Shown: in pieces, positions 11,428 to 15,018 of the stretch
Position numbering within the stretch: the stretch's first letter is position 1
Layout: each line of letters opens with the position of its first letter
Assembly (NCBI GenBank): GCA_947311115.1
Contig: CAMZKE010000036.1
Span: 1 to 49,173 of the forward strand
Direction of reading: 5' to 3'
Length of the DNA stretch: 49,173 bases
From: an uncultured Bacteroidales bacterium
GTDB taxonomy: Bacteria > Bacteroidota > Bacteroidia > Bacteroidales > JAFGXI01
Translations under genes and position numbers: made by a program
Notes under the pieces: model-generated
Told to the model about the DNA's origin: nothing
Databases searched by the model: none
Seen by the model: the letters and a program-made list of their open reading frames with translations, nothing else

Positions 11428-13110
11428 ATGAAAATAATAAAAAGAATATTTTTAAGTCTATTTGTGGTATTAATTATTTCAATAATTTATATTGTAATCG
11501 ATGCACAAATATCGCCGCCAAAAATCAAAGATTTAAGCTCTTTAAACGATAAAAGAATACATCCAACAAATAACTTTTATAAAATAAAAAACAATTGGCT
11601 TCAAAAAAACAAATATGGCATTTGGGAAATGTATGTAGAAGGTTCGCCTTTTGAAATGGGCATTTACGAAGGTAAACTATCAAAAGAACTTATAAAAATA
11701 CAAGAAGAAGCTTTTGTTGAACAAATTAGCATATTAATCCCTTCAAAATCGTATCAAAAATTCTTAAAATATTTTATTGGCATTTTCAATAGAGATATTG
11801 ATGAGTATATACCTAAAGAGTATTTAGAAGAAATTTATGGTATGTCAAAATCGACCTCTGATGAGTTTAATTATATAGCCCCAAATTATCAGCGAATGCT
11901 AAATTATCATGGAGCTCACGATATTGGTCACGCACTAAAAGACCTAGCAATGGTTGGTTGCACCTCGTTTGGTGTAAACATAAACAAAAACGATAGTAAT
12001 ATGCTTATTGGCAGAAACTTCGATTTTTATGTTAACGACGATTTTGCAAAAAACAAACTCGTTTGTTTTGCCAAACCAGATAGTGGATATAAATTTATGT
12101 ATTATACTTGGGCAAGTTTTATTGGCGTAGTTTCAGGCATGAACGAAAAAGGTTTAACTGTTACAATAAATGCTGCAAAATCAGATATCCCTACAAAAGC
12201 AGCAATGCCAATTTCCATTTTAGCAAGACAAATATTACAATACGCACAAAATATTGAAGAGGCGAAACAAATAGCAAAAAAAGCACAAATATTTGTTTCT
12301 GAATCAATATTAGTAGGTTCGGCTCAAGATGATAATGTAGCAATTATTGAAAAATCGCCTACAAAACAAGGTTTTTATTCAACAACAGAAAGCAGTATTG
12401 TTTGCCCAAATCATTTTCAGAGCAAAACATTTAAAAACGATAAAAATAATATAACTAATATAAGAGAATCTGCATCAAAATATAGATTTGATAGATGTTG
12501 GCAATTAATTAACAAATATGATATAATTGATTACCCGCAAGTTGCCGAAATATTAAGAAATACAAAAGGTATTGATGATGTAAATATTGGAATAGGAAAC
12601 GAAAAAGCAATGAATCAATTAATATCACATCATAGTATAATTTTTAAACCCAAAGAGCTTAAAGTTTGGGTTTCTACCCCTCCATACCAGCTTGGTAAAT
12701 ACATAATGTACGACTTAAATAAAATATTTAATTTAGGCGATTCAATTAATGAAAACACACTGATAAACGATACATCTTATACAATTCCTATTGATAGTTT
12801 TTTGTATTCGCAAGATTATAAAAACCGCATAAAATTTGTGAAATTAAGGCACAAAATATGGCTTAGTTTATGGAACGACAAACCAATTGAAAATGCTGAT
12901 GAAATTATGAATGAAATAGTTGAGAGTAACCCTGAATATTATTTATCATACTACGAAGCAGGCGATTATTACTTTCATTTTAAGCAATACAAAAAAGCAA
13001 AAGAAAACTATGAAATTTGCTTAACTAAACTTTTTGAGAATGAAAGTCAACACAGGCATGTATTAGAAAATTTGATAAAAATTAATGAATGGGTTATTGA
13101 CACTGATTAA
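11428..13110 (+). CDS. C45-type Ntn hydrolase/acyltransferase with C-terminal TPR-like region
   Basis: 560 residues. An N-terminal hydrophobic anchor (about 5-26) suggests a periplasmic, membrane-tethered protein. VGCTSFGVN places the presumed nucleophile at Cys178, followed by LIGRNFDFY, as in the acyl-CoA:6-aminopenicillanate acyltransferase (peptidase C45) / choloylglycine-hydrolase-like family. Family knowledge: such proteins self-cleave before the Cys and hydrolyse or transfer acyl groups through an amide. Residues about 485-550 look like a TPR pair (YYLSYYEAGDYYFHFKQYKK). The true substrate is unknown. The last codons lie inside the first copy of a 72-nt repeat. C45-like proteins recur beside aryl-polyene/flexirubin genes in Bacteroidota, which may link it to the 6549-8425 operon. 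Confidence 0.83.
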   Translation: MKIIKRIFLSLFVVLIISIIYIVIDAQISPPKIKDLSSLNDKRIHPTNNFYKIKNNWLQKNKYGIWEMYVEGSPFEMGIYEGKLSKELIKIQEEAFVEQISILIPSKSYQKFLKYFIGIFNRDIDEYIPKEYLEEIYGMSKSTSDEFNYIAPNYQRMLNYHGAHDIGHALKDLAMVGCTSFGVNINKNDSNMLIGRNFDFYVNDDFAKNKLVCFAKPDSGYKFMYYTWASFIGVVSGMNEKGLTVTINAAKSDIPTKAAMPISILARQILQYAQNIEEAKQIAKKAQIFVSESILVGSAQDDNVAIIEKSPTKQGFYSTTESSIVCPNHFQSKTFKNDKNNITNIRESASKYRFDRCWQLINKYDIIDYPQVAEILRNTKGIDDVNIGIGNEKAMNQLISHHSIIFKPKELKVWVSTPPYQLGKYIMYDLNKIFNLGDSINENTLINDTSYTIPIDSFLYSQDYKNRIKFVKLRHKIWLSLWNDKPIENADEIMNEIVESNPEYYLSYYEAGDYYFHFKQYKKAKENYEICLTKLFENESQHRHVLENLIKINEWVIDTD

Positions 13111-13256
13111 TTATGATTGTTATGATTTTGATAACAATTAACATAATAATCTTATAAAATCTGCGTCATTAATAATGAAATATTTTGACTCTGAATAATT
13201 ATGATTGTTATGATTTTGATAATATTTAGCATAATAATATTATAAAATCTGCATCA
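13097..13256. repeat. Tandem 72-nt direct repeat upstream of the GxxExxY gene
   Basis: Unit 1 (13097-13168) and unit 2 (13185-13256) align without gaps at an offset of 88 nt. They share a core, TTATGATTGTTATGATTTTG, identical in both, and a tail TATAAAATCTGC. Unit 1 covers the last codons and stop of the C45 gene. Unit 2 ends 31 nt before the GxxExxY ATG. I infer that the repeat travels with, or controls, the GxxExxY gene. No protein is encoded in the units themselves. Confidence 0.8.
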
Positions 13257-13287
13257 AATAAAAAATATACATCTTAATAAATAAAAT

Positions 13288-13674
13288 ATGTATGATAATT
13301 ACAAACACACAGAAATAACAGAGAAAATTATAAAGGCTTTTTATAATGTTTACAACGAGTTAGGTTCTGGATTTCTTGAAAAAGTTTATGAAAATGCTAT
13401 GCTAATAGAATTAAAGAAATTTGAATTGTTTTATGAAAATCAAGAAAAAATAAACGTTTACTACGATAAAAAACTAATTGGAGATTATTATGCTGATATT
13501 GTCGTAGATAATAAAGTTATTATAGAATTAAAGGCTATTAAACAGATTGCACCTATTCATGAAGTACAATTAGTTAATTATTTAAAAGCTACAGAAATAG
13601 AAGTTGGATTGTTATTAAATTTTGGTGAAAAGCCTCAAATTATCAGAAAAGTATTATTAAATGATGTAAAATAA
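13288..13674 (+). CDS. GxxExxY protein (PD-(D/E)XK nuclease-fold, unknown function)
   Basis: 128 residues, full length for this small family. The name-giving GFLEKVY lies near residues 33-39. The nuclease-fold catalytic pattern is visible as ADIVVDNKVIIELKA (Asp, then E-x-K near residues 70-86), followed by the QLVNYLKAT helix (Q-x3-Y near 99). Family knowledge: GxxExxY proteins belong to the PD-(D/E)XK superfamily, occur in many copies in Bacteroidota and other environmental bacteria, and have no firmly established role. DNA binding or cleavage is inferred only from the fold. It is a single gene preceded by two 72-nt direct repeats, and may have been acquired as a unit with them. Confidence 0.9.
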   Translation: MYDNYKHTEITEKIIKAFYNVYNELGSGFLEKVYENAMLIELKKFELFYENQEKINVYYDKKLIGDYYADIVVDNKVIIELKAIKQIAPIHEVQLVNYLKATEIEVGLLLNFGEKPQIIRKVLLNDVK

Positions 13675-13731: not shown

Positions 13732-15018
13732 ATGATACCCAAAATAGAAACAAAATCGAGACAAGAAATAAAAGATTCACAAGAAAAAAAGCTTGTTAAA
13801 TTATTAAAATATGTAAATACAAACTCTAAGTTTTATAAAAACTTGTTTACAAAAAATAACATCGATATATCAACCATTAAAACATTAGACGATTTAACAA
13901 AAATACCTGTTACTACAAAAGACGATTTACAGAAGCAATTTGATGATTTTTTATGCGTTGACAAACAAAAAATTATCGATTTTGTTACAACCTCCGGTAC
14001 AATGGGAAACCCTGTTACCTTTGGAATGACAGATAAAGATTTAGACAGATTAGCTTATAACGAATATTTATCATTTTCATGTGCAAATACCACTACCGAC
14101 GATATTTTCCAGCTCATGGTAACACTCGACAAGCGATTTATGGCAGGTATGGCTTATTTCTTAGGCATTAGAAAACTTGGAGCAGGAATTATTAGAGTTG
14201 GACCGGGTTCGCCTGAATTACAATTTGAATCAATCAACAGATACAAACCTACCGGTTTAATTACAGTACCTTCATTTATCCCAAAACTTATAGAATATGC
14301 CGAGAAAAACGGCATAGATTATAAAAATTCATCAATAAAAAAGGCAGTGTGTATTGGCGAACCTATTCGAACATCAAATTTTGAATTAAACCGCTTAGGT
14401 AAGAAAATAAAAGAAAAATGGGATATTGAATTATACTCAACATACGCATCAACCGAAATGGGAACTGCTTTTACCGAGTGTAGTGCAGGCAAAGGCGGGC
14501 ATCATCACCCTGAAATGATTATTGTTGAGTTTTTAGACGACAATAATATGCCTGTTCTTGACAATGAAATGGGAGAAGTTACAATTACAACTCTTGGCGT
14601 TGAAGGCATGCCTCTTTTAAGATTTAAAACAGGTGATATTTGTTACCATTATACTGAAAAATGCGAGTGTGGTCGCACAACAATGCGACTAGGACCGGTT
14701 ATTGGGCGTAAACAACAAATGATAAAATTTAAAGGTACAACTATTTACCCTCCTGCCCTTTTCGATGTACTAAACGATATAGATTGTGTTGAAAACTACA
14801 TAGTTGAAGTAAGCACAAATAATCTTGGAACCGATGAAGTATTAATAAAAATAGGATGTACAAACCCTGAAAAAAATATTGATAAAAAACTTAAAGATAA
14901 CTTTAGAGCAAAACTAAGAGTTGCTCCTGAATTTGAGTTTTACTCACAAAAAGAAATACAAAAAATGCAGTTTCCTGAACATGTTCGTAAACCTATAACT
15001 TTTATTGACAGGCGATAA
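13732..15018 (+). CDS. Phenylacetate--CoA ligase family protein (PaaK-like)
   Basis: 428 residues, the usual PaaK length. The adenylate-forming P-loop is TTSGTMGNPVTFGMT (about 87-101). STYASTEMG and the TGDICYHYTEKCECGRT segment (with paired Cys) match the family, and the C-terminal domain keeps RAKLRVAPEFEFY. Family knowledge: PaaK enzymes activate phenylacetate and other aryl acids to CoA thioesters with ATP. In anaerobic Bacteroidota they often sit beside indolepyruvate:ferredoxin oxidoreductase genes, which are absent here. The substrate could be phenylacetate, indoleacetate or another aryl acid. It starts 57 nt after the GxxExxY stop, with no clear promoter of its own. Confidence 0.88.
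   Translation: MIPKIETKSRQEIKDSQEKKLVKLLKYVNTNSKFYKNLFTKNNIDISTIKTLDDLTKIPVTTKDDLQKQFDDFLCVDKQKIIDFVTTSGTMGNPVTFGMTDKDLDRLAYNEYLSFSCANTTTDDIFQLMVTLDKRFMAGMAYFLGIRKLGAGIIRVGPGSPELQFESINRYKPTGLITVPSFIPKLIEYAEKNGIDYKNSSIKKAVCIGEPIRTSNFELNRLGKKIKEKWDIELYSTYASTEMGTAFTECSAGKGGHHHPEMIIVEFLDDNNMPVLDNEMGEVTITTLGVEGMPLLRFKTGDICYHYTEKCECGRTTMRLGPVIGRKQQMIKFKGTTIYPPALFDVLNDIDCVENYIVEVSTNNLGTDEVLIKIGCTNPEKNIDKKLKDNFRAKLRVAPEFEFYSQKEIQKMQFPEHVRKPITFIDRR

Follow-up and report, generated by a model that had tools for sequence, protein, structure and literature searches.

Does the small GxxExxY protein encoded in a 49,173-nt stretch of an uncultured Bacteroidales genome (the window, which is the whole stretch analysed) belong functionally with the two 72-nt repeats that precede its gene? 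GxxExxY proteins have, to our knowledge, no known function. In the literature we met them as a passing mention beside a reverse transcriptase, and a search that covered few subscription journals returned no paper tying GxxExxY to repeats. The original prediction, made from the window, held that this protein with a nuclease fold and the repeats before its gene make up a unit that may be mobile or related to defence, the protein recognising the repeat.

Palindromic mini-elements beside the GxxExxY gene

The two units align without gaps at an offset of 88 nt and are identical at 65 of 72 positions. Since the runner-up 72-nt self-match in the 49-kb window (offsets 72–200) reaches 43/72, chance is excluded for this pair. 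The predicted distance of 31 nt between the end of the second unit and the GxxExxY ATG agrees with our coordinates. The description of the units as direct repeats was right in that both are real and incomplete in that each is a palindromic mini-element, an imperfect palindrome with GATT-type words every ~9–10 nt. Mini-element 1 reads CTGATT-AATTATGATT-GTTATGATT, with the reverse-complement words ACGCAGATT-TTATAAGATT; both units read TGACnCtGATT-AATTATGATT-GTTATGATT and, taken from the opposite end, TGACGCAGATT-TTATAAGATT-ATTATG. Folded as single-stranded DNA, mini-element 1 beats 200 of 200 shuffles (z −3.1), and the decayed mini-element 2 gives a z of −0.7. The window holds two gene-less mini-elements in tandem upstream of a GxxExxY gene (Table 1). 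The candidate right-end remnant 3′ of the gene is a 15-nt match in AT-rich DNA, which is moderate evidence. An initial degenerate search pattern for the window's repeat matched 39 times against 37 times for its control, which is chance level, and Rfam returned no match. Elsewhere in the same genome (L003–L007), a window-type right end, GACGCAGATTTTATATGATTTTTATGATAATTG, is joined to another dispersed repeat, TTGAGCGAACGGCGTCAGTCGAAGCG.

Table 1. Positions of the features discussed, in the window unless a locus is named.
Feature	Position	Strand	Remarks
C45 acyltransferase (host gene)	11428..13110	+	Last codons and stop within mini-element 1
Mini-element 1, gene-less, 72 nt, imperfect palindrome	13097..13168	+	C45 stop inside; self-comparison and ssDNA fold
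Mini-element 2, gene-less, decayed palindrome	13185..13256	+	65/72 identical to mini-element 1; 16-nt spacer from it
GxxExxY gene, 128 aa, predicted PD-(D/E)XK fold	13288..13674	+	Profile matches, conserved residues, model
Putative decayed right-end remnant, reverse complement GATTTTATATGATAA	13697..13711	-	Resembles closely the core of the genome's other, solo copies
FlxY-type acyl-CoA ligase (host gene)	13732..15018	+	Profile match; C45 neighbour in relatives
Four-helix-bundle genes in fetched loci	L484 9573-9944, 10550-10903, 15815-16141; L458, L455, L130, L115, L103, L101, L095, L090, L133, L056

The stop codon of the C45 gene was said to lie in the first unit, and the final codons of this reading frame, which ends at 13110 (GAC ACT GAT TAA), are indeed unit sequence. 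In a genome of the same genus (G001), the C45 orthologue is 74% identical, lacks the repeat and stops a few codons sooner after ...KLKEIAE, so the C-terminal ...VIDTD of the window protein is probably derived from the element. These alignments make the arrival of the repeat at the 3′ end of C45 plausible. The relatives offered no clean empty site for the window element: C45 and FlxY are adjacent with no GxxExxY gene between them only in two more distant genomes (G025 and G026), and the same-genus genome is rearranged.

The family assignment and the conserved D, ExK and Q-x3-Y named by the original prediction are borne out. The window protein matches TIGR04256 at 135 bits (cut-off 35) and Pfam PF13366 at 138 bits (cut-off 22), and among the protein families searched its matches are restricted to PDDEXK_3/GxxExxY. 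The G28-E31-Y34 motif is invariant, as are E31, D70, E80, K82 and Q94, and Y98 is near-invariant, giving an E..D..ExK..QxxxY signature. The AlphaFold2 model (pLDDT 92, pTM 0.85) combines an alpha-beta core with the conserved D70, E80-x-K82 and Q94-x3-Y98 of PD-(D/E)XK proteins. Its closest structure is Cas4 SSO0001 (PDB 4ic1; VIA Z 10.0, rmsd 4.2 over 99 residues; Foldseek 1.7e-4), followed by Hjc resolvases, lambda-type exonucleases, AddAB/RecB-type nucleases and restriction nucleases, with middling Z values that speak for a common fold only. A sequence search for relatives with a solved structure found none. The protein is predicted to be a minimal Cas4/RecB-like PD-(D/E)XK nuclease. About one in two of the Bacteroidota genomes sampled carries GxxExxY genes, and many further phyla have them as well.

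Inverted word arrays at GxxExxY genes and across genomes

All three GxxExxY genes of the window's own genome lie inside arrays, and no two share a word: the type is GATT in the window, TTAAG on contig C93 and CGCTAAG on contig C45. A scan of public genomes yielded 80 named loci, all from the largest GxxExxY subfamily, in Bacteroidota, Planctomycetota, Ignavibacteriota, Chlorobiota, Chloroflexota, Pseudomonadota, Omnitrophota, Verrucomicrobiota, Hydrogenedentota and one archaeal MAG. A typical locus consists of a word array upstream, the gene, and the reverse-complement array downstream, for example AACCACAGAG-n3-CACAGAG ... gene ... CTCTGTG-n3-CTCTGTGGTT. Flank statistics were computed for 73 of the named gene loci and 1,033 control windows from the same loci. 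Repeats had been predicted near other GxxExxY genes, and at least eight shared inverted 7-mers were found at 45% of the loci versus 1.0% of the controls; a word with at least two copies upstream and at least two complements downstream occurs at 38% versus 0.2%. Inverted word arrays are 40–200 times commoner at the GxxExxY loci than in these controls, and long direct repeats are present at 27% versus 2.4%.

The words form chains mainly of three to four. The 5-mer autocorrelation peaks at a lag of 9–11 nt, at 3–11 times the control and with a harmonic at 20–22, a period that corresponds to one helical turn. The spacers of the two arms share an identity of 0.52 in register versus 0.33 across registers, which is consistent with a hairpin or an inverted-duplicate intermediate. 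The outer ends read T..AACC (TTAACC-type) in the class with AG words and ATGG/TAG-AAC (ATGG/TAGAAC-type) in the class with GAT words. In better-preserved genomes of the window subfamily, the mini-element measures ~85 nt and has four words per arm, e.g. AATAGAACACAGATAACGCGGATCGGACTGATTTACACAGAT..., inverted on the opposite side. GxxExxY genes are flanked by inverted arrays of helically phased words.

The word class tracks the protein subfamily. This was seen among 262 non-redundant proteins, with the sample balanced by loci taken from whole genomes: RCNNAG (AG) words occur at 152 loci of the main subfamily (..GPGLLESAYE..) and CNGAT (GAT) words at 9, and in the window subfamily (..VYN.LG.GFLEKVYENA..) the counts are 31 loci for CNGAT and 3 for AG (Fisher 1e-24). 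CGAATT words are favoured in a third subfamily, and GTCTGAAC ends occur with GATT words in a fourth. Over the protein tree, we count 19 changes of word label versus 51 after shuffling (shuffled minimum 45). Flank-word similarity follows protein identity, and that of distal flanks does not. Linkage alone could produce this match, with the gene and its flanking arrays co-diverging and no recognition involved, which calls for a test in trans.

Across 296 genomes of Bacteroidota, matches to the AG array pattern numbered 506, versus 2 for a reversed control pattern, and AG arrays were present in 73 of 148 gene-positive versus 5 of 147 gene-negative genomes. At least three GAT arrays were found in 32 of 47 genomes carrying the window subfamily; the corresponding counts are 16 of 102 where all GxxExxY genes belong to other subfamilies and 3 of 147 where there are none. 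The contrast persists inside four families (OR 14, p=1e-6) and after subtraction of two arrays per cognate gene (25/46, 16/102 and 3/147); G106, with 183 GAT matches, was left out of this subtraction, since a larger repeat carries its array along. The dispersed arrays depend on the cognate gene. Two observations are less tidy. The AG pattern fails to split window-subfamily genomes from those with other GxxExxY genes (14/47 versus 27/102), and the GAT arrays in 16 of 102 genomes that hold only other subfamilies count against a strict pairing of protein and word. Rather than being widespread where the gene is missing, an outcome that the original prediction had named as contrary to it, the arrays are dispersed nearly always in gene-carrying genomes.

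Arrays lie inside long ORFs in 30% of cases versus 79% of random positions. Solo arrays are more numerous than genes (G243 has 27 array matches and one gene), and many are short clean palindromes with no gene remnants; canonical palindromic mini-elements were seen in G106 and other genomes. In G106 itself, the GAT mini-element lies inside a longer repeated unit whose ends read GAGACCTCTGAAAAATTAAGAATAG (L435, L436, L446, L447, L449), and the cognate gene is only partial, the 183 matches being inflated by the larger repeat. Three genomes (G168, G196 and G073) hold 3–9 GAT arrays with no GxxExxY gene detected, for which gene loss, an assembly gap or another driver may account. At L373 (G265:C1:237437-237455), an AG-class mini-element sits within the start of a lipoprotein gene, where its right arm, CTTTGCGTATTCTTAGCGCTCTTTGCGGTTACC, codes for the signal peptide core LCVFLALFAVT, in frame ahead of a lipobox-like SQSC.

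The pairing of the nuclease-fold protein with its own repeats, as originally predicted, is strongly supported: the flanking is systematic, the words are subfamily-specific, and dispersed arrays depend on the presence of the cognate gene. The best inference from these patterns is that the GxxExxY protein recognises its repeat. The data suggest that GxxExxY genes and their arrays form an unrecognised family of repeat-plus-nuclease genetic elements, and this link accounts for a type of intergenic repeat that is common in environmental genomes and had lacked an explanation.

Candidate mechanism and competing explanations

The reading that we favour, and judge somewhat probable, is that the window element belongs to a widespread compact chromosomal family in which a PD-(D/E)XK enzyme is accompanied by cognate palindromic arrays, resembling REPIN-RAYT with a different enzyme, and in which recognition and dispersal in trans would occur. 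Such an element consists of a GxxExxY gene between two inverted arrays of a 6–8 nt word, typically with three to four copies per arm about one helical turn apart. Its gene-less form is the 70–90 nt palindromic mini-element, located beside the gene and scattered in intergenic DNA. A GxxExxY oligomer on one face of the helix may recognise the phased words of both inverted arms, either in duplex DNA or as a hairpin on single-stranded DNA, and may nick or cut at the element ends. Mini-elements would occasionally be copied or moved in trans, as is thought for RAYT transposases with REPINs, and one of the two tandem mini-elements of the window would have landed on the 3′ end of C45.

No copies at least 95% identical were found at different sites; alignments between copies at different sites are confined to the gene, and none is recent, so movement is slow or past. 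GxxExxY relatives were found on 8 of 72,556 plasmids, in 0 of 50,697 phages and at 3 loci in viral contigs. Within one genus, a single junction was seen empty, carrying the gene, with the gene deleted and in a gene-less state, the words being different and the flanks too diverged for exact boundaries. The rarity on plasmids and phages, the lack of recent copies and this multi-state junction point to chromosomal residents with slow turnover, as known for RAYTs and REPINs (PMC3116915, PMC8266576).

The main rival is a unit that spread long ago, gene and inverted arrays together in a transposon-like manner, and left solo arrays mostly as leftovers of gene deletion, the protein now being inactive on dispersed copies. 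Near-identical copies are absent, several copies are broken, and one mini-element keeps an orthologous place in diverged genomes; in L207, compared with L126 (flanking gene 97% identical), the GxxExxY gene has been lost except for its 3′ end, and each of the two arrays survives in part. We consider this explanation unlikely, since many solos are clean short palindromes that bear no gene remnants and outnumber the genes (27 to 1 in G243), and genome-wide arrays follow the cognate subfamily.

A role in RNA, by which the arms would form a transcript hairpin as in 23S rRNA intervening sequences and GxxExxY would act on RNA, or the hairpin would merely shield or process mRNA, seems quite improbable. 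The in-register relation of the arms (0.52 versus 0.33), the strong folding of mini-elements and the precedent of intervening-sequence ORFs between terminal inverted repeats that are cut by RNase III (PMC4990558) all fit it; against it, the words recur at the helical phase, a property of DNA, the most conserved feature is the word rather than the pairing, and the solos are genome-wide and gene-dependent.

GxxExxY is not the only gene found in such surroundings. Thirteen genes for four-helix-bundle proteins (TIGR02436; S23-like, with a weak Avd match) in the fetched loci lie between inverted phased-word arrays with other words, e.g. AGTGTTCAGTGTTCAGT, GGTATAGGGTTTAGGG, GTTAGTGATTAGTGG and AAACGTGAAATGTCAAACG, and at least eight inverted 7-mers are present at 69% of these loci versus 3.1% of controls. 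They are a second, unrelated family with a GxxExxY-like architecture. The same intergenic spot holds a GAT mini-element at L476 15888-15944 (G199:C10:91889-91944) and a four-helix-bundle gene with its own arrays at L484 (G353:C1:86518-86945). The two families may belong to one class in which the core gene can be exchanged. We put forward only tentatively the wider proposal that phased-word inverted arrays form a large unrecognised class in bacteria and some archaea, with either GxxExxY (AG, GAT, AATT or GATT words) or an S23/Avd-like protein as the core gene, the protein reading the word, the arrays spreading in trans and the 23S rRNA intervening sequence being a special case.

That a core gene with no nuclease fold can occupy the same kind of array also lends something to the idea of another mover, in which a transposase acting in trans moves the arrays and GxxExxY is cargo or a regulator binding them as operators. 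This is very doubtful, as the array class tracks the GxxExxY subfamily and the catalytic residues stay invariant. The defence part of the original prediction did not hold up: despite the Cas4-like PD-(D/E)XK fold, a small defence or nuclease-immunity unit with arrays marking self is extremely improbable, given weak PADLOC matches with none that is real (best E 0.005, to AbiEii, on which anti-phage defence membership was rejected; Cas4 0.011), near-absence from plasmids, phages and viral contigs, and ordinary metabolic genes as neighbours.

With GxxExxY genes tied, at their loci and across genomes, to helically phased words specific to each subfamily, the question of function becomes a direct experiment, namely binding or cutting of its own-word array by each GxxExxY subfamily, and the natural protein–word pairs would be useful material on how a very small nuclease recognises specific sequences.

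Comparison with known systems

In enzyme class and repeat architecture, the element fits none of the families that we tested. With Cas4 (SSO0001, PDB 4ic1) and RecB-type nucleases, the window protein shares the predicted fold and the E..D..ExK..QxxxY motif; unlike Cas4, it has only 128 aa and no cysteines for an Fe-S cluster. A part in Cas4/CRISPR adaptation was rejected on this ground and because no cas1/cas2 or CRISPR array lies nearby, the neighbours being C45 and FlxY. IS elements and MITEs also have a gene between inverted ends and gene-less derivatives, but here there is no known transposase, no recent identical copy and near-absence from plasmids; this assignment was rejected for want of a transposase family match, though inverted ends are present.

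The intervening sequences of 23S rRNA, in which an S23 ORF lies between terminal inverted repeats and whose origin is debated (PMC4990558), are likewise units of ~400–600 nt with one small ORF between such repeats. In contrast, the window element lies between ordinary genes (C45 and FlxY) and not in 23S rRNA, GxxExxY takes the place of S23, and GxxExxY elements have phased word arrays and dispersed gene-less copies.

By analogy, the logic of the element resembles REPIN-RAYT (the REPtron), which joins an HUH transposase, TnpA-REP, to dispersed REP palindromes (PMC3116915, PMC8266576), despite the new combination of enzyme and repeat. In both, short palindromic repeats lie on either side of a chromosomal enzyme gene and recur dispersed in intergenic DNA, the repeat class tracks the enzyme lineage, repeat abundance depends on the gene, and the gene is rarely amplified and rare on plasmids. 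The differences are that the window enzyme is of the PD-(D/E)XK (Cas4/RecB-like) type by prediction, that the GxxExxY arms consist of three to four helically phased words, and that several distinct GxxExxY paralogue–word pairs per genome are common; membership in REPIN-RAYT was rejected, as there is neither an HUH/Y1 transposase nor a GTAG tag. Beside RAYTs, the GxxExxY system would be another, independent way of combining an enzyme with dispersed palindromes.
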